NCBI RefSeq assembly: GCF_001027925.1
Contig: NZ_LECT01000006.1
Location: 310,001 to 374,000 of the forward strand
Source: Rhodopirellula islandica
GTDB taxonomy: Bacteria > Planctomycetota > Planctomycetia > Pirellulales > Pirellulaceae
Direction: 5' to 3'
DNA: 64,000 nucleotides
Shown here: positions 13,903-62,304 of the stretch, piece by piece
Position numbering within the stretch: position 1 is the stretch's first letter
Layout: each line of letters begins with the position of its first letter
The notes under the pieces: model-generated
Told to the model about the DNA's origin: nothing
Databases searched by the model: none
Seen by the model: the letters and a program-made list of their open reading frames with translations, nothing else
Position numbers and translations under genes: made by a program

Positions 13903-13928
13903 TCCACGACGCATCCGTCGCAAAACAT

Positions 13929-13983
13929 CGTCGCGAAACTCATTCCCGTCGCGAATCTCATTTTCGTCGCGAATCTCATTTTC
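13929..13983. repeat. Degenerate 18-bp direct repeats next to the first REPIN
   Basis: Three units of about 18 bp with the core GTCGCGAATCTCATTTTC (the first reads GCGAAACTCATTCCC) run directly into the left arm of the palindrome at 13984, whose first bases GTAGCGAAACTC resemble the same unit. They may be partial copies of the REP arm produced by slippage. Confidence 0.7.
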
Positions 13984-14054
13984 GTAGCGAAACTCGTCAA
14001 GAGTTTCGTCCATTCCCTCTCCGAATCATCGAAACTCTTGACGAGTTTCGCTAC
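13984..14054. repeat. REPIN 1: 71-bp double-hairpin palindrome
   Basis: Two perfect 25-bp arms in inverted orientation, each beginning GTAGCGAAACTC, flank a 21-bp centre. Each arm also contains its own 8-bp palindrome, CGAAACTC-GTCAA-GAGTTTCG. A REP hairpin followed by its inverted copy is the defining layout of a REPIN. This copy lies 17 bp beyond the stop codon of the RAYT gene. Confidence 0.9.
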
Positions 14055-14071
14055 GAGTCGACGAGCTTTCG

Positions 14072-14656
14072 TTACAAGTATTTGGGATCAGGGCGACGGA
14101 AGCAGGCCGTTCTTTTCAAAAAAGAAAGCGTTTGCCAAACTTCGTCCCAGCCCGCTTCACCAAACAGCCGAATGCGTGGTGCGCCAGGCAATAGGCATCC
14201 GGTGTACGGGTAGGTCTGGAAATGATCTGTCTTGACCAAGCCTTTCCGTTCGGGATTTCTGGCGATGTATTCCATGGTGGATTCGATCGCACCACGCTCC
14301 AGTTCATGGTCCTTCAGAACATGATCGTACGGTTGCAATTGGAATTGATGCCCGACTCGTTTCAAGCAGTCGTTTGAATTCAAGCGAAACGCTTTCATGG
14401 CGGGCAACTGATCCGAGTCATCGGCGAGCCCTGCCCACAGAAGGTGGATGTGGTCGGGCATCAAACAATAGATCGGACAAGCGATCTGATAGCGGAAGGC
14501 GGCGTGGGTCAGCAATTCTCTCATCTTGTAGAGAAATCGAGCGTCGAGCCAACCGGTACGACGACCGTCAATCGTGCACACCCAATGCACCCATGCTTCG
14601 CCCCGGTAATACTCAGCCGGCAATCGTTTTAGCCGTTGCGGACGCTCGACAGTCAT
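14072..14656 (-). CDS. REP-associated tyrosine transposase (RAYT, Y1/IS200-like HUH enzyme)
   Basis: A protein of 194 residues. MPDHIHLLW at residues 66-74 carries the HxH of the HUH motif, and MEYIARNPERKG around residue 130 holds the likely catalytic Tyr (Y130) followed by the NP signature typical of RAYTs. Family enzymes nick and move single-stranded REP hairpins and are domesticated rather than self-mobile. The start at 14656 is preferred: the frame continues upstream (MDETLDEFRY) only because it reads through REPIN 2. The gene is flanked within 10 and 17 bp by identical 71-bp REPINs, which are its likely substrates. The nuclease role follows from the family and is not tested here. Confidence 0.9.
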   Translation of the reverse strand: MTVERPQRLKRLPAEYYRGEAWVHWVCTIDGRRTGWLDARFLYKMRELLTHAAFRYQIACPIYCLMPDHIHLLWAGLADDSDQLPAMKAFRLNSNDCLKRVGHQFQLQPYDHVLKDHELERGAIESTMEYIARNPERKGLVKTDHFQTYPYTGCLLPGAPRIRLFGEAGWDEVWQTLSFLKRTACFRRPDPKYL

Positions 14657-14665
14657 CCCTTTATC

Positions 14666-14736
14666 GTAGCGAAACTCGTCAAGAGTTTCGTCCACTGCCT
14701 ATCCGAATCATCGAAACTCTTGACGAGTTTCGCTAC
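14666..14736. repeat. REPIN 2: 71-bp double-hairpin palindrome
   Basis: Same 25-bp arms as the copies at 13984 and 14888, with a slightly different 21-bp centre. It begins 10 bp upstream of the RAYT start codon, so it may lie in the leader or promoter region of that gene. Confidence 0.9.
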
Positions 14737-14876
14737 GGATGGATCGTATCGATGAGCGACGCGTGGGAAGGAAGTCGCATGGCGATCTCAGTGTGCGTCG
14801 AGCGAATGTGTTCCAGGAATTGGGCTGTCCCTGGTTGGGAGTCGCGCGAGCCTGGCAACGCGACCGTCGCAGCGTC
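14737..14876 (-). pseudogene. Duplicated, internally deleted tail of the halogenase gene
   Basis: Bases 14737-14848 repeat 14959-15070, the last part of the halogenase gene, with only a few changes. The next roughly 25 bases (ending CGACCGTCGCAGC near 14874) match about 15212-15234, so this copy has lost roughly 140 bp between two GGCAA(C) microhomologies. Together with REPIN 2 it forms a tandem duplicate, at about 222-bp spacing, of REPIN 3 plus the true gene end. Confidence 0.85.
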
Positions 14877-14887
14877 GTGAAGCGATC

Positions 14888-14958
14888 GTAGCGAAACTCG
14901 TCAAGAGTTTCGTCCACTCCCTCTCCAAAACATCGAAACTCTTGACGAGTTTCGCTAC
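14888..14958. repeat. REPIN 3: 71-bp palindrome supplying the halogenase stop codon
   Basis: Third 71-bp copy with the same 25-bp arms. Read on the minus strand, its outermost bases GTAG give the in-frame TAG (14957-14955) that ends the halogenase gene, so the element overlaps the coding region by one codon. Confidence 0.9.
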
Positions 14959-16538
14959 GGATGGATCGTATCGATGAGCGACGCGTGGGAAGGAAGTCGC
15001 ATGGCGATCTCAGTGTGCGTCGAGCGAATGTGCTCCAGGAATTGGGCTGTCCCTGGTTGGGAGTCGCGTGCTCCTGGCAAACAACCTGGTTGAACGCCTG
15101 CTGGACTGAGAATGTAGTGGTGGTTCACGTCCAGGAACGTGGGATCACGCTGTGGCATCAGGACTCGGCCTGTGCGAGTGTATTCCTCCAGCAACCTCGC
15201 TAGAGAGTCAGGCAACGCGACCGTCGCAGCTTCTTTCCAAAACGCCGTGTCGCGGCGCTGTGAAACGACATAGTGCATCAGCACAAAGTCACGCACCTGA
15301 GCGTAAACCTCCGTCATCCGTGTGTTGAATGATTGGGTGTCGCAGGAGCGTTTGTCAAAGACACCTGGCAAGATCGTCGTCGGCAAACACTCCACCAATT
15401 CGTCCAGGGCGCGCTGGACCAAGAAGATCCCGGTGGACTCCAGCGGTTCGACAAAACCAGCGGACAATCCGATCGAGACGCAGTTGCCGACCCACGACAT
15501 CGGTCGCATCCCCACTCGCATCGGGACAACTCGGGTCTCCATTGTTTCCCCGTCGCCACCGACCAAGTCGATCAGTTCGCTTCGGGCGTCTTCGTCGCTG
15601 ATGTGAGCCGACGAAAACACATAGCCGCAACCCGTGTTCTCGTGCAGAGGGATTTGCCAGGACCAACCGGAGTTCATTCCGGTGCTGATCGTGAACGGCG
15701 GCAGTTCAGCGGAAGACTCTTCATCATCGCCCAATTCATTGCGAGGCCGACGCATCGTGATGGCGCGATCACAGATCAATTGCCCGGACCAGTCGGTCCA
15801 CTCTGATCGCATCTCTCGTTCAATCAGCACACTCGCGAATCCGCTGCAGTCGATGAACAGGTCCCCTGCCACGGCGGTTTGCCCATCCAGTGAAAGGGAT
15901 TGGATGTTGCCTTGCTCATCGTGGGCCGCGCCGCACACGTCCGCGACAACGTGCTGGACGCCTTCGTTGATAGCAATCTCTTGCAGGAAGGCAGCCAGCT
16001 TTCCCGCGTCGAGATGAAACGCGTAGTTGTGCGCAAGACTCGGTTGACCAGGCGCACGCGGACCGCGCCCTCGTTCGCACAGTTCGCGTTGGAAGCTGTA
16101 GTCGGTGTACTTGGATTCGACGGGGATCCAGCCCTGGCGAACTCCCCGTTGCCAGGTGTGAATCAGGTCCACGCCATCGATGGGGCTGCCGCAAATCCCA
16201 AACGGGTGCCAGTAACGGTGTTGGGGTTCGACCCAGTTGTCGAACCGAATCGCGAGTTTGTAAGTCGCACCGGTCCGGCGGATGAAATCATCCTCGTCGA
16301 TGCCCATGTTCTCGATCCAATCCACGATCGCTGGGATCGTCGCTTCGCCCACACCGATCGGTGGAACACGAGCCGATTCAACCACGGTGACACGGCATCC
16401 GAGTCGACGTTTCAACGTCGCGGCACTCATCCACCCCGCCGTCCCACCACCGACGACAACGATGTGAGGGGCGTTGGCCGAGGGACTGTCACCAAGTTGT
16501 TGGTCGTGATGCAGCACCGTGGTGTCGTCCGTTTCCAT
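14955..16538 (-). CDS. Flavin-dependent (tryptophan-type) halogenase
   Basis: A protein of 527 residues, the usual size for the family. The FAD-binding Rossmann motif VVVGGGTAGWMSA is at residues 27-39; GVGEATIP follows at about 62-69; TYKLAIRF at about 92-99 contains the Lys (K94) that aligns with the catalytic Lys of tryptophan halogenases; and WSWQIP matches the diagnostic WxWxIP motif. Family enzymes use FADH2, oxygen and chloride or bromide to halogenate aromatic substrates and need a separate flavin reductase, which is not seen nearby. The substrate is unknown. The start may be GTG 16541 or ATG 16538, with GAGGAA upstream. The C-terminus IDTIHP is followed at once by a stop inside REPIN 3, so the tail may have been trimmed by the insertion. 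Confidence 0.92.
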   Translation of the reverse strand: METDDTTVLHHDQQLGDSPSANAPHIVVVGGGTAGWMSAATLKRRLGCRVTVVESARVPPIGVGEATIPAIVDWIENMGIDEDDFIRRTGATYKLAIRFDNWVEPQHRYWHPFGICGSPIDGVDLIHTWQRGVRQGWIPVESKYTDYSFQRELCERGRGPRAPGQPSLAHNYAFHLDAGKLAAFLQEIAINEGVQHVVADVCGAAHDEQGNIQSLSLDGQTAVAGDLFIDCSGFASVLIEREMRSEWTDWSGQLICDRAITMRRPRNELGDDEESSAELPPFTISTGMNSGWSWQIPLHENTGCGYVFSSAHISDEDARSELIDLVGGDGETMETRVVPMRVGMRPMSWVGNCVSIGLSAGFVEPLESTGIFLVQRALDELVECLPTTILPGVFDKRSCDTQSFNTRMTEVYAQVRDFVLMHYVVSQRRDTAFWKEAATVALPDSLARLLEEYTRTGRVLMPQRDPTFLDVNHHYILSPAGVQPGCLPGARDSQPGTAQFLEHIRSTHTEIAMRLPSHASLIDTIHP

Positions 16539-26594: not shown

Positions 26595-26657
26595 GCAATG
26601 AGCAGGGGGCAGTGTCATGCGTCCAATGATGCCTCCTTCTCGCCAGCGAACCTCGCA

Positions 26658-26904
26658 CCCTTGTACCCAGGCTCTGCCTGGGCACACTCTGTCTTGGAGG
26701 CTCCTGCCTCCTGTCTCCCAACCCGGCAGGCAGAGCCTGCGGCGCATGGCGTTCCCAGGCGGGAGCCAGGGAACGAGCAGCACGCTTGTACCCAGGCTCC
26801 GCCTGGGCACACTCTGTCTTGGAGGCTCCCGCCTCCTGTCTCTCCAAACCGGCAGGCAGAGCCTGCGGTGCATGGCGTACCCAGGCGGGAGCCTGGGAAC
26901 GAGT
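26658..26904 (+). repeat. Hairpin-repeat array 1a: two 125-bp units before RAYT 2
   Basis: Two head-to-tail units start at 26658 and 26783. Each contains four successive palindromes: CCCAGGC-GCCTGGG, GGAGGC-GCCTCC, GCAGGC-GCCTGC and CCCAGGC-GCC(A/T)GGG, with 3-4 base loops. They are the same units as in the array at 27501, and the transposase gene sits between the two blocks. Confidence 0.9.
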
Positions 26905-26961
26905 CGTGACGAAATGCTAGGCTGACGGAAGGTGTCCATCCTCTCGCCCAGGAAAGCAATC

Positions 26962-27498
26962 ATGTCTCGCTCTCGATACAAGTTCGGAGAAGACTACCGG
27001 CCGTACTTCATGACCGACACCATCGTGGCTTGGTTGCCTGTCTTTTCTTACCCGGCATTCACCGACGTCATTTTCGATAGTTGGCGTTTTCTTCAAGGCG
27101 AGCGTGACATCCGAATCCTCGGATTCGTTGTCATGGAAAACCATCTTCACTGGATTGCGGTGGGCCCGCAAATTGGCAAACGCGTCGGAGAGTTCAAGTC
27201 GTTCACGGCGACGAGCATCTTCCACAAGATGAAGCGGATGGGATATGGAACGTTGCTTCAAGAACTGGAGTATTTCAAACTGCGTCACAAGGTCGACCAA
27301 ACGCACCAGCTATGGCAAGAAGGAAGTCATCCGCAAGTGATGGAGTCGGACGAAGTGATGTGGCAAAAGATTGAATACATGCACCACAATCCGCTGCGGC
27401 GTGGATACGTCGACGATCCGCTGCACTGGCGTTTCTCCAGTGCTAGAGCTTACGCTCGCCAGCCTTGTCTCATCAACGTTTGCACCGACTGGATGTAG
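26962..27498 (+). CDS. Second REP-associated Y1 transposase (RAYT)
   Basis: A protein of 178 residues from ATG 26962, with AGGAAAG a few bases upstream; the frame stays open to a GTG at 26932. VMENHLHWIAVGP at residues 58-70 carries the HxH (H61, H63) of the HUH nuclease site, and KIEYMHHNPLRRGYVDDPLHW around residue 139 holds the likely catalytic Tyr with the NP...G.V..P..W signature, followed by FSSARAY. It differs strongly from the RAYT at 14 kb, so it is a separate subfamily. Two units of the 126-bp hairpin repeat lie upstream and four downstream, ending and starting within about 57 bp and 2 bp of the gene, which suggests these hairpins are its substrates (inference). Confidence 0.88.
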   Translation: MSRSRYKFGEDYRPYFMTDTIVAWLPVFSYPAFTDVIFDSWRFLQGERDIRILGFVVMENHLHWIAVGPQIGKRVGEFKSFTATSIFHKMKRMGYGTLLQELEYFKLRHKVDQTHQLWQEGSHPQVMESDEVMWQKIEYMHHNPLRRGYVDDPLHWRFSSARAYARQPCLINVCTDWM

Positions 27499-27500
27499 CA

Positions 27501-28000
27501 CCCTTGTACCCAGGCTCCGCCTGGGCACACCCTGTCTTGGAGGCTCCCGCCTCCTGTCTCCCCAAACCGGCAGGCGGGAGCCTGCGGCGCATGGCGTTCC
27601 CAGGCAGAAGCCAGGGAACGAGGGGTACCCTTGTACCCAGGCTCCGCCTGGGCACACCCTGTCTTGGAGGCTCCTGCCTCCTGTCTCCCAAACCGGCAGG
27701 CAGAGCCTGTGGCGCATGGCGTTCCCAGGCGGGAGCCAGGGAACGAGCGGCACGCTTGTACCCAGGCTCCGCATGGGCACACCCTGCCTTGGAGGCTCCC
27801 GCCTCCTGTCTCCCCAACCCGGCAGGCAGAGCCTGCGGCGCATGGCGTTCCCAGGCGGGAGCCAGGGAACGAGCAGCACCCTTGTACCCAGGCTCCGCCT
27901 GGGCACACTCTGTCTTGGAGGCTCCCGCCTCCTGTCCCCCCAACCCGGCAGGCAGAGCCTGCGGCGCATGGCGTTCCCAGGCAGGAGCCAGGGAACGAGA
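27501..28000 (+). repeat. Hairpin-repeat array 1b: four units of about 126 bp after RAYT 2
   Basis: Units begin at 27501, 27628, 27753 and 27879 (periods 127, 125 and 126), all in the same orientation as array 1a. The conserved order of four GCCT/AGGC stems is kept in each. Small differences between units (TCC or TCT loops; CAGGCGGGAGCCTGC instead of GCAGGCAGAGCCTGC in the first unit) are often compensated within the stems. Confidence 0.92.
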
Positions 28001-28115
28001 GGAATGAGCAGGGCAACAGGTCGCTTGAACCGGTCACAGAGAACGAATCAAAAGACGCCGAAAACAGACGCGAGAAAGCTGGTGGTTCGAGTTGATTTCG
28101 AACGGCTTCCCCTCA

Positions 28116-45720: not shown

Positions 45721-46424
45721 CAGTGCGTCCCCAGGCGGGAGCCTGGGGACGAGCTGTGCGATCTTGTACCCCGGCTCTGCCTGGGCACACCCTGCTCCCG
45801 AGGCTCCTGCCTCACGAACCTGCAACCCGGCAGGCAGAGCCTGCAAGACAGTGCGTTCCCAGGCGGGAGCCTGGGGACGAGCCGTGCGATCTTGTGCCCC
45901 GGCTCTGCCTGGGCACACCCTGCCCCGAGGCTCCTGCCTCACGAACCTGCAACCCGGCAGGCAGAGCCCGCAAGACAGTGCGTTCCCAGGCGGGAGCCTG
46001 GGGACGAGCCGCGCGATCTTGTACCCAGGCTCTGCCTGGGCACACCCTGCCCCCGAGGCTCCCGCCTCACGAACCTGCAACCCGGCAGGCAGAGCCTGCA
46101 AGACAGTGCGTTCCCAGGCGGGAGCCTGGGGACGAGCTGTGCGATCTTGTACCCCGGCTCAGCCTGGGCACACCCTGCCCCGAGGCTCCCGCCTCACGAA
46201 CTTGCAACTCGGCAGGCAGAGCCCGCAAGACAGTGCGTTCCCAGGCGGGAGCCTGGGGACGAACCGTGCGATCGTGTGCCCCGGCTCTGCCTGGGCACAC
46301 CCTGCCCCGAGGCTCCTGCCTCACGAACCTGCAACCCGGCAGGCAGAGCCTGCTTTGGGATTGCTTGGTAGGAGGCGGGAGCCTCCCAGGCAGTGTGTTC
46401 CCAGGCGGGAGCCTGGGGACAAGA
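45721..46424 (+). repeat. Orphan hairpin-repeat array 2: five units of 127-128 bp
   Basis: The landmark GCGATCTTGT (or GCGATCGTGT) recurs at 45758, 45886, 46013, 46141 and 46268 (periods 128, 127, 128, 127). Each unit has the same four GCCT/AGGC hairpins as array 1 but a different spacer (CGAACCTGCAA, GACAGTGCG). No transposase is adjacent. The final unit is altered, ending with an extra GGAGGCGGGAGCCTCC hairpin. Confidence 0.92.
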
Positions 46425-54353: not shown

Positions 54354-54450
54354 CTCTTTCGTGGGCCAGGCCCCGTTTGATGCGATGAGACGACCGTTCA
54401 AAGAGGGCTGCCCCGACTGATCGAAGTTGACGACGGCGACATCGCCGTCT

Positions 54451-55166
54451 TGTCCCCAGGCTCTGCCTGGGCACACCCTGTCCCCGAGGCTCCTGCCTCA
54501 CGATCCAGCAACCCGGCAGGCAGAGCCTGCAAGACAGTGCGTCCCCAGGCTCTGCCTGGGCACACCCTGCCCCGAGGCTCCCGCCTCACGAACCTGCAAC
54601 CCGGCAGGCAGAGCCTGCAAGACAGTGCGTCCCCAGGCGGGAGCCTGGGGACGAGCTGTGCGATCTTGTTCCCAGGCTCAGCCTGGGCACACCCTGCGCC
54701 CGAGGCTCCTGCCTCACGAACCTGCAACCCGGCAGGCAGAGCCTGCAAGACAGTGCGTTCCCAGGCGGGAGCCTGGGAACGAGCCATGCGATCTTGTACC
54801 CAGGCTCTGCCTGGGCACACCCTGCTCCCGAGGCTCCTGCCTCACGAACCTGCAACCCGACAGGCAGAGCCTGCAAGATAGTGCGTCCCCAGGCGGGAGC
54901 CTGGGAACGAGCCGTGCGATCTTGTGCCCCGGCTCAGCCTGGGCACACCCTGCCCCGAGGCTCCTGCCTCACGAACCTGCAACTCGGCAGGCAGAGCCTG
55001 CAAGGCAGTGCGTCCCCAGGCGGGAGCCTGGGGACGAGCCGTGCGATCTTGTGCCCCGGCTCAGCCTGGGCACACCCTGCTACCGAGGCTCCTGCCTCAC
55101 GAACTTGCAACCCGGCAGGCAGAGCCTGCAAGACAGTGCGTTCCCAGGCGGGAGCCTGGGGACGAG
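54451..55166 (+). repeat. Orphan hairpin-repeat array 3: about six units
   Basis: The landmark GCGATCTTGT recurs at 54660, 54788, 54916 and 55043 (periods 128, 128 and 127), preceded by two units starting at 54451 and about 54540. The first unit is only about 89 bp long because the CCCAGGC-GGGA hairpin and spacer are missing, as expected from recombination between two hairpins. Sequence and orientation match array 2. A short palindrome GACGGCGA-TCGCCGTC precedes it. Confidence 0.92.
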
Positions 55167-55460
55167 CACGCACACAAAGAAGTTGCGTTTGAAAAGATTT
55201 GAAAAGCCGTTCTCAGGCGTGGCTGCTTCGAGTGGGATTTGGCCTGGTTTGGGCCTGGCTTCGGTGGGTGTCGTTTCCCGCTCGGCAAGCTCCCGCTGCT
55301 CCAATGCATGAAGGGCCGCGAAGGTTTGAGCTGACCGAAGACCAGTGGAAAGAACGATCGCTTCAAGGTGCCGACGAATTGGGCCATTTCATGGCGCAAC
55401 TGGGTGACGCGTTGGGACAACGCGCACCAAAGAACAGACAGATGCATTTCAACAAAAGGC

Positions 55461-57068
55461 TCATTGCTTCTTCGCCTTCTTTTTCTTCGGGGTGGGGGCA
55501 CTCGATGGCTGATAGGTCTCGAGTAGCGTCTCCATTCCCTGCACGACTTCCGGAAATTCGTGATACAAATTTTGAGTCTGTTTCAGGTCTTTTTTCAAAT
55601 CGTAGAGCTGTGCAGGCGGTGAATTCGGCTTGATCTTTCCACTTGCAATATCGCTGTTCGTGTATCCCGCATAGGCAATGGCGGCAGGGCCGGCAAAGTC
55701 GTGTCGACCTCGTTTGGTTCCGCCAAAACCGCCGCTTCCCTGGCCGCTGATATACATCCACTTGCCCCTGCGAATCGCGAGGAAGCCGCGTCGACTCGCT
55801 GCCAGAACCAAGTGATCACGAATGGGGTTCTGCGGGTTCCCAGTCAGTGCGGGCAGCACATTCACACTGTCGACCGCTTGACCGTCGCGAATCTCGACAC
55901 CAGTCAGTGCGGAAATTGTCGCGACCATATCGACGTTGCAAATCAACTGATCCGAAACCGAACCCGCTTCGATCTTGCCTGGCCATTTGGCGATAAACGG
56001 AACGCGGTGTCCGCCTTCCCAAACGCCAAACTTAAAGCCGAGCAATTCACCGTTCAAATGGTGTCCCGCATCCCAAGCACCCTGCCCGGTTACATTGAAC
56101 ATGCCGCCGTTGTCGCTGGTGAAAATGATCAGCGTATCATCGGCCACGCCTTGCGCTTCGAGCGTCATGGTGATCTCGCCTACGATCCAGTCGAGTTCGT
56201 GAACAAAGTCGCCATAGAGGCCGCACTCACTGGTTCCTTGGAAGCGGGGTGCCGGTGTGAAGGGATGGTGGATATTGGTAGTCGCCAGGTAGAGGAAGAA
56301 GGGATCTTCCTTTTGTTGCTTGATCCAATCGACCGCTTTCTCCGTGAGGTGGGTACCGACATGATAGTCGTCGTAGAGAGCATGGGCCGCATCCGCGCCA
56401 CCGATGTCGCCGATGTGCATCTTTTCGTGGATCTCTTTGGTCTTCGCCTTCTTGCCATGAACAAACGGGTCATCCGGCAGCAAGCCTACGACGCGGTGGT
56501 TTTCGACATAAACAAATGGCGGATGGCTATTCACAGTTGGCACGCCGTAGTAATGATCAAAGCCCAGTTCCAGCGGGCCGGGCTTTAGGTCGCCGTTCCA
56601 ATCGGGAGTTTTCTCACCGAAGCCCAAATGCCATTTACCAACACAGGCGGTGGCATAGCCCGCGTTTTTCATCACATCCGCCAAGGTCTGCTTTTTCGGA
56701 TCGACAACCAAACCGCTCTTTAGAAAAACGGGCCTGCTCAGGTTTTTCCGGTGCGGATACTCTCCCGTCAGCAGAGCATAGCGAGACGGCGTGCACACCG
56801 CAGACGCCGAGTGCGCGTCGGTAAAGCGTCGTCCCTCTGCTGCGAGCTGATCGATATTCGGTGTCTTCAGCTTGGTCGCTCCATAGCAACCAAGATCACC
56901 GTAGCCGAGGTCATCCGCAAAAATGAGGACGATGTTAGGCCGGTCCCGACGAGTACGAGGCTCCGTCGAAGTCGCTGATTGAAGAGGATGCTCGCCATAC
57001 GCATCTGCCTGGCAAATTCCGCAAAGACAGAACAACGTCAATAGAATTGTCTTTTGATGTGCGTTCAT
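55461..57068 (-). CDS. Secreted Cys-type sulfatase
   Basis: A protein of 535 residues with signal peptide TILLTLFCLCGICQADA. RPNIVLIFADDLGYGDLGCY at about 43-62 gives the metal-binding DD; VCTPSRYALLTG has the CxPSR site whose Cys92 becomes formylglycine; GKWHLGFGEKTPDW and TSDNGGMFNVTGQG complete the active site. The Lys-rich C-terminus (PKKKKAKKQ) is common in these planctomycete enzymes. It removes sulfate from a polysaccharide or similar compound; the substrate is not predictable. No sulfatase maturase is seen in the window. Confidence 0.93.
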   Translation of the reverse strand: MNAHQKTILLTLFCLCGICQADAYGEHPLQSATSTEPRTRRDRPNIVLIFADDLGYGDLGCYGATKLKTPNIDQLAAEGRRFTDAHSASAVCTPSRYALLTGEYPHRKNLSRPVFLKSGLVVDPKKQTLADVMKNAGYATACVGKWHLGFGEKTPDWNGDLKPGPLELGFDHYYGVPTVNSHPPFVYVENHRVVGLLPDDPFVHGKKAKTKEIHEKMHIGDIGGADAAHALYDDYHVGTHLTEKAVDWIKQQKEDPFFLYLATTNIHHPFTPAPRFQGTSECGLYGDFVHELDWIVGEITMTLEAQGVADDTLIIFTSDNGGMFNVTGQGAWDAGHHLNGELLGFKFGVWEGGHRVPFIAKWPGKIEAGSVSDQLICNVDMVATISALTGVEIRDGQAVDSVNVLPALTGNPQNPIRDHLVLAASRRGFLAIRRGKWMYISGQGSGGFGGTKRGRHDFAGPAAIAYAGYTNSDIASGKIKPNSPPAQLYDLKKDLKQTQNLYHEFPEVVQGMETLLETYQPSSAPTPKKKKAKKQ

Positions 57069-57477
57069 CGTGCTGCTTTCTTTTGGGATCGATTCACTTG
57101 TTTGATATCAGGGCGTTTGCAGAAAAATGTTGCAAAAGATGAACGCGATTCGTCATCGTATCGCCGACATGAACGCAGCGTCCTTTTGTCGTGATGAAAT
57201 TTCAGTCGCGACGTGGCATTGTCGGCATCGGAGAGGAGTGCCGTCGCCAGACCCAGAACATGACACATCGAAATTGAATGATCTGAATCTTTCTATTTTC
57301 GAATTGCGACCGTGTTCCATTCGCCACGTTCTTGAACTTTGCTTTCGTCTTTCAGCGATCTCGGAGCGCTCGGTATTGCAGTTGACCGTCTCCCCGGGAC
57401 CGTCATTGTAAATTGTAAAGAAACACTCCTTTGGGCGTATCCGCGATCTGCAACTTGGTAAGGTTTTGTCGGCAAAC

Positions 57478-57597
57478 ATGTTATGCAGCCAGCCGTTGCT
57501 CGGCTATCCAATGATCGGTGCCGGACTTGCCGGCGGGAATTGGAAGACCATTGCCGATATCATCCAACAGGAACTCGTCGGCAACATTTCAAGTTGA
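57478..57597 (+). pseudogene. C-terminal remnant of a macro-domain protein
   Basis: A 39-residue frame reads LLGYPMIGAGLAGGNWKTIA then DIIQQELVG, the end of a TARG1/Poa1-type macro domain (IGYPxIGAGLAGGDW), which processes ADP-ribose derivatives. Nothing upstream in any frame completes the roughly 150-residue domain. The other bases from 57069 to 57606 show no gene. Confidence 0.6.
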
Positions 57598-57606
57598 TTC
57601 ATCGCA

Positions 57607-58293
57607 ATGATCACGACTCCAGTTGATACGACGACGCCGCTCGTTCTGCTCTCAGGGCTTGCCGCGGACGCTCGCGTCTTCACGCCGCAGAAGATTGCGT
57701 TTCCGCAACTGCATTGTCCCGCCTGGTTGCCTCCTCACCGCCAAGAGTCGATCGACGAGTACGCCAAACGGATAGCGGACACACTCGAGGAAGGGCCGTG
57801 CATTGTGGGTGGCGCATCATTTGGCGGCATCGTCGCTTTGCATCTGGCCGAACATGTCGACGCCCAAGCTGTGATTTTGATCGGAAGCATCAAGTCACCG
57901 TCACAACTGCCGCTGTATGCCCGCTGTGCTCGGCCGCTTCGGTCCTTGGTTCCCTTCATTCCGATTCGCTTTCTTCAGCTCCTCGCTCGGCCGATCGCGA
58001 CGCGAGCGATCAAGCGGCATGGACCCTTCGCGTACGGGCTTGCCTGTCAGTTCCGCGACTCCAACCCAGTCGTATTCAGATGGTCTTTGTCCCGTCTCTT
58101 GGATTGGTCCAGCACACCGGCCGTTTCCTGCCCGGTCTTCCATCTGCACGGCGACCGCGACTGGACACTCCCACTGCGCTACACGGATCCCGACAAGATC
58201 GTCGCCGGCGGCGGGCACGTCCTTTCACTGACACACCCCGATGAAGTCAACGCATACATCAACGAAATCCTCCACAAGAATTTGTCCAAGTGA
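57607..58293 (+). CDS. Alpha/beta-hydrolase fold protein
   Basis: A protein of 228 residues. LVLLSGLAADARVF is the oxyanion-hole start, GPCIVGGASFGGIVALHLAE carries the nucleophile elbow G-x-S-x-G-G, FHLHGDRDWTLP gives the Asp region, and GGGHVLSLTHPDEV holds the catalytic His. The order is that of a small esterase or lipase-like enzyme without a lid domain. It follows the macro-domain remnant by 10 bases. The substrate is unknown and no partner genes are obvious. Confidence 0.88.
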   Translation: MITTPVDTTTPLVLLSGLAADARVFTPQKIAFPQLHCPAWLPPHRQESIDEYAKRIADTLEEGPCIVGGASFGGIVALHLAEHVDAQAVILIGSIKSPSQLPLYARCARPLRSLVPFIPIRFLQLLARPIATRAIKRHGPFAYGLACQFRDSNPVVFRWSLSRLLDWSSTPAVSCPVFHLHGDRDWTLPLRYTDPDKIVAGGGHVLSLTHPDEVNAYINEILHKNLSK

Positions 58294-58413
58294 ACGAGAG
58301 GAGTGGGGCGTCCTTCTTTTGCGTTTGCGATTCAGGTCTTGCTCGTTTGGAGCGGTTCCTTTGCAACGCATTTTGGGACGCGGAGTGGAAACGCCCGATG
58401 CAACAGGTTCTGT

Positions 58414-58707
58414 TCACTCTTCTTCAATCGCGTCTTGTTGGTGAGCGGCATCGAATGCCGCGTTCACTTCGTCTTCATCAGGAAACGGAATCGGTTCTGG
58501 CTGAATGTATTCCCACATTTCGTTTTGGTGCAGCCATATCGGGTCGGCATTTCGGAGGATGAATTCGTCGACGGGAAGGCCGTCAATGGTCGGCGGACGT
58601 TTGATACGCACTTGTTTGCCGTTGATGAAGATCCACTGGTACTTTTTTTGGCGTTCTTTTTTGGCTCGTTTTTCGGCTGCCGTCAGTTTGCGTTTCGGTT
58701 TTGCCAC
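58414..58707 (-). CDS. Conserved-looking hypothetical protein, 97 residues
   Basis: GTG 58707 is preferred to the ATG at 58800 because GGAG precedes it and a basic start follows (AKPKRKLTAAEKRAKKERQK). The middle KYQWIFINGKQVRIKRPPTI DGLPVDEFI is compact and the C-terminus is acidic (IPFPDEDEVNAAFDAA). No membrane segments or known motif are seen. A nucleic-acid-associated role would fit the basic N-terminus, but this is a guess. Confidence 0.65.
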   Translation of the reverse strand: MAKPKRKLTAAEKRAKKERQKKYQWIFINGKQVRIKRPPTIDGLPVDEFILRNADPIWLHQNEMWEYIQPEPIPFPDEDEVNAAFDAAHQQDAIEEE

Positions 58708-58893
58708 GTTTGCTCCATTCGTTCGCGGATGACGACCAGGGTCACCAGTTGTTCGTTTTCCACCATCGGTTGACTCGTCCAAGTTTTGGATCGGTTGCAA
58801 TCTGCCGAGGCGAGGTGCATTCTATTGCGATGTGAATCAGGAAGATGCTTCCTCGGTTCGATTCGAACCTTGAGTGATTGAAATTGAGACCCG

Positions 58894-59092
58894 ATGTCAG
58901 AGTATCAGTGGATCGAATTCCTCGCGATTGAGTCACCGTTGGATTCCGACGCCATCGGGTTCATGCAAGCCCAGTCTTCGCGAGCCGAGGTCGACCAGTG
59001 GCGTTTTGCGAACGAGTGCCGATGAACTGAAGAACCGATACCCAACCCGGTCAGCACTGCATGCTGAAATCCGGAACGCTCTCGACGGTTGA
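58894..59092 (+). pseudogene. Remnant of a conserved hypothetical gene
   Basis: ATG 58894 encodes MSEYQWIEFLAIESPLDSDA then MQAQSSRAEVDQWRF, like the N-terminus of a hypothetical family beginning MPEYQYYEFQAIDRPL. It stops after 43 residues at 59025. A second frame to 59092 encodes DELKNRYPTRSALHAEIRNA, like that family's end. The middle is missing, so a large deletion is likely. Confidence 0.5.
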
Positions 59093-59096
59093 AAAG

Positions 59097-59160
59097 GTGG
59101 CATAGGCTTCCAGCCTGTGTTCCGCGCAATCACAGGCTGGAAGCTTATGCCACTTTTTTT
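59097..59160. repeat. Long hairpin with T run (GTGGCATA...CCAGCCTGTG family)
   Basis: The 23-base arms (59097-59119 and 59131-59153) pair with a single mismatch around an 11-base loop and are followed by seven T. It could work as a terminator on the plus strand, but a half copy at 30667 shows that it also belongs to a dispersed repeat family. Confidence 0.85.
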
Positions 59161-59365
59161 CGTTCAGACCCCCTCCCTGAACCCAACAATGCCCCCCGCC
59201 CCAAACAATAGTCCACAATCGTAATGAGGGAACTTTTGCCGGTCTTTGATGCGCCCGTGATGGTGTTCACAGCTCCACATCGAAAGCCGCGGTCTGATTG
59301 ACTCGCTACAACTGGCGGACCAAGATAGCAGCGAAAATAGAGTCCAGTACCTTAAAAGCTCCGCC

Positions 59366-61078
59366 ATGATCAAGCGACTATGTTTCCTCCTTGTCTCGTT
59401 CTCCGCAGTCTCATTCGTGGGAACCTGCCCAGCGACGGAGCCAGATACAGTCTTCGCAGAATCACTGCCGTGCTACTACACGCCGATTGAACGCAAGGAA
59501 ACCCAAAACCTCACATTCGATGTCGTTGTCTACGGCAGCACGCCGGGTGGAATCACAGCCGCAGTCCAAGCGGCTCGGATGGACAAGAACGTCGCACTCA
59601 TTTCGTTCGGTCCTCATGTCGGCGGTTTGACCACAGGCGGCCTGACAGCGACCGACATCGGCACGAACACATCTGTTGGCGGCTTGGCTCGCGAGTTCTA
59701 TAACCGACTTGGAAAGATTAGTAACTTCAGCTCGTATGAGGCCGAGACCGAGTTTCTTGAAATGCTCAACGATGCCGGCGTCACGGTTCTGTTAGACCGC
59801 CCCTTGGAATCCGCCGAGCTCCGCGAAAAACGGATCCAATCGATCTCGCTGATGACCGGCGAGACAATCGTCGCGAAGATGTTTGTCGATGCGACCTACG
59901 AAGGGGACTTGTACGCGGCCGCAGACGTGTCCTACCAAGTCGGCCGCGAGCCAAGGTCCGCGTTTAACGAGTCGCTCGCCGGACAATGGCAGGCGGAGTC
60001 ATGGAAAGGCGTGTACCAGTTCTGCGATCTTCCCATCAGCCCGTTCATCAAACCCGGTGATCCAAACGCGGGCCTACTGCGGGAGATCGCGATCAAGCCC
60101 GCCGGCGATCCTGGCCAAGGCGACTACAAGGTCCAGGCGTACAATTTTCGCATGATCTTAACGAACAGCGACAACAAGATCCCATTTCCCAAACCCAAAG
60201 GCTACGACCCCGATCGTTATGCACTGCTTGCCCGATTTCTTGACTTCGATGCTGACATCCAATGGAGACTGAATTACACGACCACGCCAATGACCGACGG
60301 GCCAGTGCAGATGCGTCGCGGCGACTCCAACAACGCCGGCAGCTTTTCCAGCGACTACGTCGGCGGGAACTATAAGTGGCCCGATGGCACCTACACCCCA
60401 GGCTCCTTCGATGAACTACCCGAGCCACGCCGAGGATTGCCGATGCCGATGGCCGAGTTGTACGAACTACGCGAAAAGATCTTTCAAGATCACATCAACT
60501 ACCAAGTCGGCCTGATGTACTTCCTGGCCAACGACCCACGCGTCCCCAAACCGCTACAACAACGCGTCAACTCATTCGGCCTGGACCCAAGTGAGTTCAA
60601 AAACACTGGCCATTGGCCCCACGAACTCTATGTCCGCGAAGGCAGGCGAATGGTCTCGGACTACATCATGGACCAAGCCAACTGCGAGGGAAAACGCATC
60701 GCGGAAGACTCGGTCGGCCTTGCTTCGTACGCAATGGATTCCCATTTCTGCCAACGTGTGGTTGTCGTCCGCGACGGCAAGACGACCGTTCGCAACGAGG
60801 GCGGGTTCGGCAAGTGGTGCCCAAGGCCCTATCCCGTCGCGTACCGTTCAATCGTGCCCAGCAAACGGGAGTGCGAGAACTTGCTGGTGCCCGTGACCCT
60901 ATCATCCACCCACGCCGCCTATGGGTCGATTCGCATGGAACCGGTTTTCATGATTCTCGGGCAAAGCGCAGGTGCCGCCGCATCCATCGCGATTGATAGT
61001 GCGGTAGCAGTGCAGGACATCCCGTACAACAAACTGCGAGAACGACTGCTTGCCAGTGGGCAGAAGTTGCAGAACTAA
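59366..61078 (+). CDS. Secreted FAD-dependent oxidoreductase (FAD_oxidored family)
   Basis: A protein of 570 residues from ATG 59366 with signal peptide RLCFLLVSFSAVSFVGTCPA. DVVVYGSTPGGITAAVQAAR is the FAD-binding beta-alpha-beta start (a GSTPGG variant of GxGxxG), and GPHVGGLTTGGLTATDIG follows, the family mark. FVDATYEGDLYAAADVSYQVGRE and the C-terminal GQSAGAAASIAIDSAVAVQD match the family end. The donor substrate is unknown; relatives occur in polysaccharide-use loci, here beside sulfatase sequences. Confidence 0.9.
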   Translation: MIKRLCFLLVSFSAVSFVGTCPATEPDTVFAESLPCYYTPIERKETQNLTFDVVVYGSTPGGITAAVQAARMDKNVALISFGPHVGGLTTGGLTATDIGTNTSVGGLAREFYNRLGKISNFSSYEAETEFLEMLNDAGVTVLLDRPLESAELREKRIQSISLMTGETIVAKMFVDATYEGDLYAAADVSYQVGREPRSAFNESLAGQWQAESWKGVYQFCDLPISPFIKPGDPNAGLLREIAIKPAGDPGQGDYKVQAYNFRMILTNSDNKIPFPKPKGYDPDRYALLARFLDFDADIQWRLNYTTTPMTDGPVQMRRGDSNNAGSFSSDYVGGNYKWPDGTYTPGSFDELPEPRRGLPMPMAELYELREKIFQDHINYQVGLMYFLANDPRVPKPLQQRVNSFGLDPSEFKNTGHWPHELYVREGRRMVSDYIMDQANCEGKRIAEDSVGLASYAMDSHFCQRVVVVRDGKTTVRNEGGFGKWCPRPYPVAYRSIVPSKRECENLLVPVTLSSTHAAYGSIRMEPVFMILGQSAGAAASIAIDSAVAVQDIPYNKLRERLLASGQKLQN

Positions 61079-61122
61079 TTTCATTCGAGCGCGATAACGA
61101 AGGCCTCCCCATGTGCTTGAAT

Positions 61123-61386
61123 ATGCTCAAAACGCTGACTCTCTGTTGATGCGTTTCTCTGCTTCAATCCGGCGCCATCTCACACGCGAATGAACGCGAG
61201 AGCCGGCCGCCCAACGTCGTCATGATCCTCGGCGATGATCCCGGCATCGAGTGTCTGTCGGCCTATTGCGGGCGGTCTCATCAGGCTCCTCCCATCGACA
61301 CGCTCGCCGATCAAGGCATGCGGTTTATCCACTGCTTTTCAAATCCGGGTTTCGAAAAGGTGTCCGGTGCCGATTTTTTCAGCTAG
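61123..61386 (+). pseudogene. N-terminal fragment of a sulfatase gene
   Basis: From ATG 61123 the frame has a TGA at 61147, then continues GAISHANERESRPPNVVMIL, GDDPGIECLSAYCG, and IDTLADQGMRFIHCFSNP before ending TAG at 61384. This matches a sulfatase up to just before the CxPSR site. The usual Asp-Asp pair is kept but a Leu-to-Pro change (DDPG for DDLG) and the stop show decay. The rest of the gene is missing. Confidence 0.8.
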
Positions 61387-61528
61387 ATGCACCTGAGAAT
61401 GGCGTGGTTTTCTCTCTGGTGTCCGGGAACGCTTCAAGGCCGGCCCAGGGGGGCGAAAGTCGATTGGCAGGTGCTGTTCGATCGTGACACTAGCAGTGAT
61501 GAGATCGACGGTCGGCTCTCGCAAGCTT

Positions 61529-61659
61529 ACTAAGCAGGTCGGCAGGAGTGATCAAGCACAACCATGTGAGCCGTTTGGGTGTTCGCCCCGGTTGTGCGTG
61601 AAAACCGTGGCTAACGCCAGCGGCTCACATACCCGATGACACCTGCGTACCTGCTTAGT
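61529..61659. repeat. 131-bp nested inverted repeat, MITE-like
   Basis: Outer ends ACTAAGCAGGT (61529-61539) and ACCTGCTTAGT (61649-61659) are perfect 11-base inverted repeats. Inner ATGTGAGCCG (61564-61573) and CGGCTCACAT (61621-61630) form a second perfect 10-base pair. No protein is encoded in it. It sits in the decayed region beyond the sulfatase fragment. Confidence 0.75.
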
Positions 61660-61892
61660 TGCGTGAGAGTAACGGCGGCGGTGCGACATTGGTTGCTGGT
61701 TGAATGCTCTCGCTGACGTCGCGCGCTGCCGGGAGCGTCTCGGACGTCTGGTGACTCCGGATGGTCGCGAGCGTGCGGGCGATTTGCCGATGTCACTGTG
61801 TGCTCATGATTGTTAACCAAAACCCCTGCTCCCGAGTCTCCATGATCATCCGTTTGGTGCCATCCACCATTCATCAATCATTGGGAACCCAT

Positions 61893-62112
61893 CTGTCGCC
61901 GCTCCGCGGCTTGGAATTGGGCGGGGGCATCCGAGACGTCGGGTTGAAACTCGACGCTATCGAATGACACCGCTCCGCGGTTGGTTGCCAACATCTTGAC
62001 CGAACAGTCGCGGAGCGACGGCATTGGGGCAGCCTTGGGTTTCAACCCAAGGTCCGGCCGTGACCAAAGCACACCCAAGTCGCGGAGCGACAACCGTTGA
62101 AACGAGTTCGGA
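61893..62112. repeat. Intergenic repeats with GTCGCGGAGCGAC and CTTGGG/CCCAAG palindromes
   Basis: GTCGC(C)GCTCCGCGGC or its complement recurs at about 61897, 61970, 62006 and 62080, and CTTGGGTTTCAACCCAAG is at about 62034. The region from 61387 to 62146 otherwise contains no gene I can support, apart from the nested repeat at 61529. Confidence 0.65.
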
Positions 62113-62146
62113 GCGATCTGCCGCCGCTCGGCTGTGGCGGGCCACG

Positions 62147-62187: not shown

Positions 62188-62230
62188 GATTCGGTGGTGA
62201 ATGACAGGCAAGGTGCCTGTCCCACTCAAG

Positions 62231-62304
<74 letters not shown>

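Follow-up and report, generated by a model that had tools for sequence, protein, structure and literature searches.

To our knowledge, little has been established about how RAYTs find their repeats and spread them. The REPINs of P. fluorescens SBW25 are described, in the cited part of PMC3116915, as non-autonomous inverted doublets that can fold into one long hairpin; they are linked to a RAYT, dispersed, and also found in tandem clusters that repeat the flanking sequence. The E. coli TnpA-REP (4er8), associated with BIMEs, is an HUH-Y1 nuclease, and in the portion of PMC8266576 used here both this enzyme and its counterpart from S. maltophilia cleave REPs in single-stranded form at C|T, the E. 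coli REP being one bulged hairpin. The same portion of that recognition study covers a few REPs, all of them with a GTAG foot, and the excerpted text of PMC6006769 names the E. coli residues E100, H101, and R104 as the GTAG contacts. Class 3 of the TnpA-Y1 proteins (Quentin et al. 2018, same excerpt of PMC6006769) occurs in Planctomycetes, has atypical hairpins without GT[AG]G, and is characterised by a Y----Q motif and a CnGA foot. The P. fluorescens repeat family R178 (PMC2718517, in part), with a length of 101 bp and internal 11-bp inverted repeats, is a possible Pseudomonas relative, compared by description only. No description of two-hairpin REPs was found in the titles or abstract openings of the open-licence literature searched.

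The locus presented here lies in the window, the whole stretch of 64,000 nucleotides that was analysed (C6:310001-374000), from the 7.43-Mb genome of Rhodopirellula islandica in 55 contigs. Measured against the cited accounts, its repeats resemble the SBW25 REPINs as RAYT-linked inverted doublets, dispersed as well as in tandem with repeated flanking sequence, but each arm contains two hairpins, lacks GT[AG]G, and has a CT border. The enzyme resembles the E. coli TnpA-REP as an HUH-Y1 nuclease, whose cleavage dinucleotide C|T is conserved at the unit border; in contrast, the GTAG foot and several contact residues are lacking, and the repeat consists of two spaced hairpins instead of one bulged hairpin. 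Class 3 has in common with this locus the occurrence in Planctomycetes and the hairpins without GT[AG]G, but the clade described below shows Y---NP and CTCG in place of Y----Q and CnGA and lies outside that class. The multicopy transposase gene and the Y---Q motif of the IS200/IS605 group are likewise not found, the gene being present in one copy in its own genome and carrying Y---NP. The elements are neither IS200/IS605 nor class 3 but REPIN-like doublets that lack two defining features of classical REPs, the foot and the hairpin number.

The RAYT gene and its six-unit array

The gene of the RAYT P0001 (26962..27498, forward strand) is an intact ORF of 178 amino acids and, by its sequence, encodes a Y1 HUH nuclease. 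It is flanked by six units in one orientation, with unit 1 (26660..26777) and unit 2 (26785..26903) on the left and unit 3 (27503..27622), unit 4 (27630..27747), unit 5 (27755..27873), and unit 6 (27881..27999) on the right, all on the forward strand. The units are 118 to 120 bp long, and spacers of 7 bp lead to a period of 125 to 127 bp. The initial annotation had reported six units of this period, in the same orientation on both sides of an intact RAYT, which is confirmed with the coordinates 26660-27999. It had further assigned AGGC/GCCT to every stem; the four hairpin positions per unit are borne out, but only 18 of the 24 hairpins carry AGGC/GCCT. The fourth hairpin reads AGGC..GCCA in five units, leaving unit 2 as the only one with a perfect AGGC/GCCT at this position, and the first hairpin of unit 5 reads AGGC..GCAT.

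Each unit is built of two inverted copies of one module, which leads to the hairpin order L S S' L', seen from unit 1 onward between borders that read CT...AG. The module contains a long hairpin L with an 11-bp stem and a short hairpin S, with a spacing of mostly 25 to 30 nt. In unit 3, the CT border (27503-27504) precedes hairpin L (27506..27528, forward strand), GTACCCAGGC.TCC.GCCTGGGCAC with one mismatch, and a spacer of 10 nt separates L from hairpin S (27539..27554, forward strand), GGAGGC.TCCC.GCCTCC. The inverted hairpins S' (27570..27585, reverse strand) and L' (27595..27620, reverse strand; single mismatch close to the apex) complete the unit ahead of the AG border at 27621-27622. Folded as single-stranded DNA, a unit of the window reaches a z score of -5.1, with L and L' staying separate hairpins and the middle pairing. 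A dispersed copy elsewhere in the genome forms a single LSSL hairpin of -48 kcal/mol (z = -11.0), and the ability of an inverted doublet to fold into one hairpin, typical of REPINs and BIMEs, is found here as well. A search of positions 26600-28020 for Rfam relatives gave 20 matches at E <= 1, all to microRNA models far under their gathering scores, and these are rejected as noise. The gene downstream of the six-unit array had no match in seven relatives at E <= 1e-60.

P0001 contains the HUH motif at H61-x-H63 and the presumed catalytic tyrosine Y139 in Y139-MHH-N143-P144, a Y---NP motif of class 2. H61, H63, Y139, N143, and P144 are invariant in clade alignments of 11 and 29 rows, and W118 and Q119 are kept in most clade rows. 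The protein is related by sequence to the E. coli TnpA-REP 4er8 (E 5.5e-7), whose residues E100, H101, and R104 align with P124, Q125, and E128 at an offset of 24. With NCBIfam NF047646, P0001 scores 83.8 bits at a cut-off of 80 and all 11 clade members match at E <= 0.01; with Pfam Y1_Tnp, P0001 is below detection and 4 of the 11 members match at E <= 0.01. Judged by the NCBIfam score, the protein belongs among the RAYTs and presumably works like them, and its gene is flanked by inverted cognate repeats as in other RAYTs. Compared with the gene of the sister species G155, it is under purifying selection, with a dN/dS of 0.07 (dN 0.031, dS 0.44, DNA identity 0.908).

A RAYT clade and its two-hairpin repeats

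With P0001 as the query, 18 of 149 genomes of the family match at E <= 1e-10, and 11 of them, the own genome included, match at an identity of at least 48%. A profile of these 11 members retrieved 451 relatives from one-per-species genomes, and the best 80 of the 451 (47 to 73% identity) were used. The working set contains 91 loci, some of which represent the same genome reached twice. The clade is split from eight more distant RAYTs at an SH-aLRT of 97. Fixed rules detect at least one half-unit in 79 of the 91 loci and, by the same criteria, none in 12. The clade loci contain 269 half-units in 430,039 bases, compared to none in the reversed and none in the shuffled sequences, and these controls rule out chance palindromes. 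Among other RAYTs, a single half-unit is found in 31 loci (102,470 bases, with some places counted twice). By their phylum labels, which may be wrong since many clade loci are MAGs, 51 of the 79 loci with half-units belong to Planctomycetota and 27 to eight other phyla, and one has no label. Isolate-type names in the set drawn from the best 80 of 451 relatives include Pseudomonas, Lamprocystis, Thiocapsa, Thiobaca, Methylobacter, and Rhodopirellula. An in-frame stop at fixed coordinates is seen in 7 of the 80 fetched loci, L094 and L111 among them; some may be effects of frame or length, and others may be decayed RAYT copies.

The consensus of the half-unit, taken once per locus over the 79 loci, is CT-CGTTCCCANGC-TCN-GCNTGGGAACG-CACT...CGANGC-TCN-GCNTCG. 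The unpaired border is C in 90% and T in 97% of these loci, with no consensus beyond it, and the foot of L is CTCG. A GT[AG]G foot is absent from this 79-locus consensus, which rules out that the repeats are REPs of the canonical GT[AG]G type. Contrary to the single hairpin of a classical REP, L and S occur together in 79 of the 91 loci. The stem pairs vary with compensation: pairs 3 and 4 of S, which half-unit detection does not demand, are Watson-Crick in 99% and 75% of 210 distinct half-units, compared to 76% and 31% expected from the columns. Half-units stand on both sides within 300 bp of the RAYT in 55 loci, and in 31 of these the arrangement is LS-RAYT-SL. The RAYT lies between whole units, as in the window, in 9 loci; 15 show other two-sided arrangements, and of the remaining loci 20 are one-sided and 16 have no half-unit at this distance.

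One base of the stem, adjoining its loop-closing GC, is variable; in the L-S reading, most loci have G, A, or C there. L and S share this base in 75 of the 79 loci (shuffled mean of 27.7, maximum of 43) and for 69 of 73 distinct proteins. The identity of protein residue 113, Gln in P0001 (codon 27298..27300, forward strand) and located five residues before the conserved W118-Q119, tracks this base pair across the clade, with Q accompanying G, R accompanying C, and S or T accompanying A. Position 113, a column picked after inspection of all loci, is by far the most informative about the L base, at 1.14 bits above the shuffled value, compared to 0.64 for the next column. The resulting rule agrees with the base of S in 72 of the 79 loci and with that of L in 70. 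In a tree built without column 113, the residue changes 10 times, the S base 8 times, and both jointly 11 times, so that 7 changes coincide, the highest number among 158 columns although column 113 is slow. For the L base, the joint change count is 13, compared to a mean of 44.5 with shuffled residues. An independent-pairs test gives one to four supported pairs and almost none opposite, too few for significance. Trained on Planctomycetota, the rule gives the correct S base at 25 of the 28 loci of other phyla, a comparison that is not fully independent since the column was chosen on all loci; the misses are one gap and two Thr residues absent from the training set. A held-out search of plasmids produced one clade member, the locus on a Salinivibrio kushneri plasmid; fetched after the rule was set, it combines R with the L base C, as predicted. 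Among viral contigs, no clade member and one distant match (22% identity) were found; phages gave no match, and two loci of Bacteroidota relatives that were inspected have no such hairpins. Positions 23 and 64 of P0001, the latter following the HUH motif, are slow columns with a weaker association with the hairpin base (five coincident changes each).

Two readings of this grammar have to be weighed. The array could be an ordinary BIME or REPIN array of a classical RAYT, in which L or S alone is the true REP with an unrecognised guide foot, its partner being a conserved spacer or passenger. The cited parts of PMC3116915 and PMC2817692 describe inverted REP doublets, REPIN clusters in tandem next to RAYTs, and REPs specific to one RAYT. 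L and S differ at four loci; the residue 113 rule agrees with S at three of them and with L at the fourth, and the Salinivibrio locus has L with no S found. Such an assignment to a single hairpin is possible but doubtful: the consensus lacks the GT[AG]G foot, the E. coli GTAG contacts (PMC6006769, in part) are replaced in the alignment by P124, Q125, and E128, and both the spacing of L and S and their common variable base are kept across the clade. The second reading is a widespread RAYT clade with bipartite two-hairpin REPs and a one-residue code, in which residue 113 directly reads the variable pair. This code would concern, in L as well as in S, the base pair third from the loop, with Q reading G:C, R reading C:G, and S or T reading A:T. 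For the bipartite repeat and the code taken together, the arguments for and against appear evenly balanced.

Copies within the genome, the genus, and the family

Searching the own genome with the unit gives 68 rows at E <= 1e-3 (both strands, some places being counted on both), and the exact half-unit pattern AGGCTCN{1,2}GCCTN{17,19}AGGCTC matches 75 times, compared to no match when read backwards. Copies were compared at 27 fetched sites outside the window. Dispersed full copies are near identical over a core running from CTTG (or CTCG) TTCCC... to ...GGGAACGAG, with the ends CTTG...CGAG, and at L206 and the L190 array the flanks are unrelated immediately beyond this common core. Many dispersed copies have about 10 nt more in common beyond the CT/AG core (left TTCAAGATTC, right AAAAAGCCTC), which makes their mobile border less sharp, as it is for copies enclosed by a larger inverted repeat. 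Such a larger inverted repeat, GGGACATCGATTTKATT.../...AATAAAATCGATGTCCC with one or both arms kept, surrounds the units at L182, L183, L184, L187, L193, and L195. The GGGACATCGATTTKATT.. palindrome was considered as a universal insertion target and rejected, as it flanks only some units and has eight matches in the own genome at up to three mismatches. At L185, L188, L192, L199, and L208, half-units form one end of a different composite dispersed repeat with a conserved right part.

The window holds two further arrays of diverged units on the forward strand, the second at about 45721..46420 and the third at about 54449..55166, and the RAYT searches of the own genome place no RAYT beside either. 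Only one gene of this genome matches P0001 at E <= 1e-10. RAYT places number 11 by Pfam and 13 by NCBIfam; the C6 locus has 18 AGGC hairpins and the others have 0 to 2. Several of the other RAYTs have hairpins of their own: the places L001, L003, L005, and L007/L014 adjoin the distinct hairpin families CTCGGGGC, CCATTGGC/CCACGAGC, CCGGGGCC, and CCACGGGC, and this genome thus seems to house several RAYT/repeat systems side by side. Another RAYT-like gene of a different kind (14072-14695, reverse strand) lies in the window region 13928-15080 among its own hairpins CGAAACTC.gtcaa.GAGTTTCG; a 222-bp tandem repeat beside it matches three successive places in G155.

Over the 149 family genomes, the half-unit pattern has 558 matches, compared to 5 for the backward control (summed totals). 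At least five half-units are present in 9 of the 11 RAYT genomes, compared to 6 of the 138 others (Fisher 3e-9), and at least one in 10 of 11, compared to 24 of 138. The carriers with fewer than five are G065 with two and G134 with none, the L apex of the latter being GGGC, outside the reach of the search pattern. With a unit DNA query, for which at most five candidates were scored per genome, 17 of the 149 genomes match, 7 of them RAYT carriers. The assumption that units are confined to genomes with this RAYT subfamily is borne out as a strong enrichment and fails as exclusivity: G138 (one contig; e.g., L209), G106, and G025 contain 28, 27, and 20 half-units, and nothing in them matches the clade profile. 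G146 contains 11 half-units and one weak partial profile match. By analogy with populations remaining after RAYT loss, described for other REPs in the cited part of PMC3686654, these orphan unit populations look like remnants after loss of the RAYT.

G155 is the nearest of 12 other genomes of the genus by PGK (99%). Its RAYT is absent from the place of the RAYT in the window, where about one and a half units adjoin the lipase gene; the cassette is found about 27 kb away in another array, where it has about five units at one flank and two at the opposite one. This is the place of the third array of the window, with the same left junction. Since the cassette occupies different arrays in the two genomes, it changed arrays in one lineage, and therefore moved by transposition or by exchange between arrays. 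A mis-join in the assembly of the own genome (55 contigs) is the less likely possibility, since all six units between the two unique flanks resemble each other. The region next to the tRNA-Met of the window (62230-62304) follows directly after the cassette array in G155, compared to about 7 kb between them in the window. This block of about 7 kb (about 55200-62140), missing at the same place in G155, is possibly an island or a deletion.

Matches with at least 85% identity over at least 250 bp were found for 18 of the 27 sites in 85 G155 stretches of 20 kb. Two of these, L188 and L192, matched through the composite repeat only, which leaves 16 sites for comparison and 11 that are not comparable. 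Units are present in both species at 16 of the 16 sites, of which 8 (L183, L184, L202-L206, L208) come from a contiguous stretch and 8 were picked from G155 regions with unit matches, a choice biased toward occupied sites. At L203, one hairpin is recognised in G155, yet the alignment continues through it. Array lengths differ at several sites, with one unit against two at L187 and about three against five or six at L200. An empty site that would show a recent unit insertion was not found among these 16 sites, half of them chosen with the bias mentioned. In the genus, RAYT DNA is present in 2 of 13 genomes; the other 11 gave no RAYT, five having been searched with the protein (none at E <= 1e-10) and six with DNA only. 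A unit behind PGK, within the 330 nt inspected, likewise occurs in 2 of 13 species, and the 11 species without it are too diverged there for the border to be aligned. The place behind PGK that is occupied by the four-hairpin unit in two relatives has, in G141 (L218), a different palindromic repeat, CCTAGGCTTCCAGCCTGG, in several copies.

These distributions bear on three further explanations. The units may be structural DNA kept by the host, such as terminators or sites for gyrase or the nucleoid, with the RAYT as a domesticated enzyme maintaining them. The strong purifying selection on the RAYT and the retention of units at all compared sites of both sister species, half of them chosen with bias, would fit this role, but it is improbable given the patchy occurrence in the genus of both the PGK-site unit and the RAYT DNA, a copy number that follows the RAYT, and the many genomes without both. 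A passive satellite, with slippage or unequal recombination as the sole source of array growth and the RAYT caught as a bystander, would account for the spacers being repeated along with the units and for the array lengths differing at shared sites of the sister species. It is nevertheless highly improbable, as single dispersed units share a common core, clade linkage and the co-variation of residue and base are unexpected of a bystander, and unit abundance, checked for equality with and without the RAYT, is unequal. An IS200/IS605-like insertion sequence with subterminal hairpins is scarcely credible despite the Y1 HUH enzyme, the hairpin ends, the cassette in different arrays in the sister species, and the few genomes with two different clade RAYTs (L084/L086, L098/L130, and L105/L114 among the best 80 of 451), since each of the 11 carriers has one RAYT at 48% identity or more, the Y motif is the Y---NP of class 2 and not Y---Q, and the multicopy part is the unit and not the gene.

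Proposed mechanism and its meaning

The locus is very probably a mobile repeat system of the RAYT/REPIN type, in which each REP is a two-hairpin module and the four-hairpin unit is an inverted doublet of it. This reading is backed by the grammar of the repeat, the common borders, the dispersal in the genome, the linkage to the RAYT, the purifying selection, and the co-variation of residue 113. Each module has the order CT, L, short spacer, S, and the unit equals the most frequent RAYT ends, LS-RAYT-SL, without the gene, which identifies it as a non-autonomous element. The initial annotation had suggested a distinct transposase-hairpin system. A regular unit is indeed tied to one RAYT clade (79 of 91 loci, compared to one half-unit in 31 other loci) and has neither the foot nor the hairpin number of classical REPs, but it is better read as a REPIN-like doublet inside the RAYT/REPIN kind than as a separate system.

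From the analogy with known TnpA-REP enzymes, we infer binding and nicking by the RAYT. The enzyme would bind the folded single strand, probably at replication, with residue 113 reading the variable pair, chiefly in S. The CACT/CTG stretch between L and S is, by its position, a candidate for the guide in place of GTAG. Tyr139 would then nick at the border C|T, after which the unit may be moved or copied. As the 7-bp spacers recur along with the units, tandem arrays would grow by a second process, such as slippage, rolling-circle copying, or unequal exchange.

The clade offers a regular two-hairpin repeat with defined ends and no GTAG foot, together with naturally occurring hairpin variants that go along with one residue of the enzyme, which suggests a simple and testable rule for the recognition of folded DNA. 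The choice of a hairpin by a single-strand nuclease becomes a simple question of residue swaps. With the module as a signature, such repeats can also be sought in many genomes, in which they may sit unannotated or be called as spurious ORFs. If the proposed code is true, exchanging this one residue would redirect the enzyme to a different folded single-stranded DNA.
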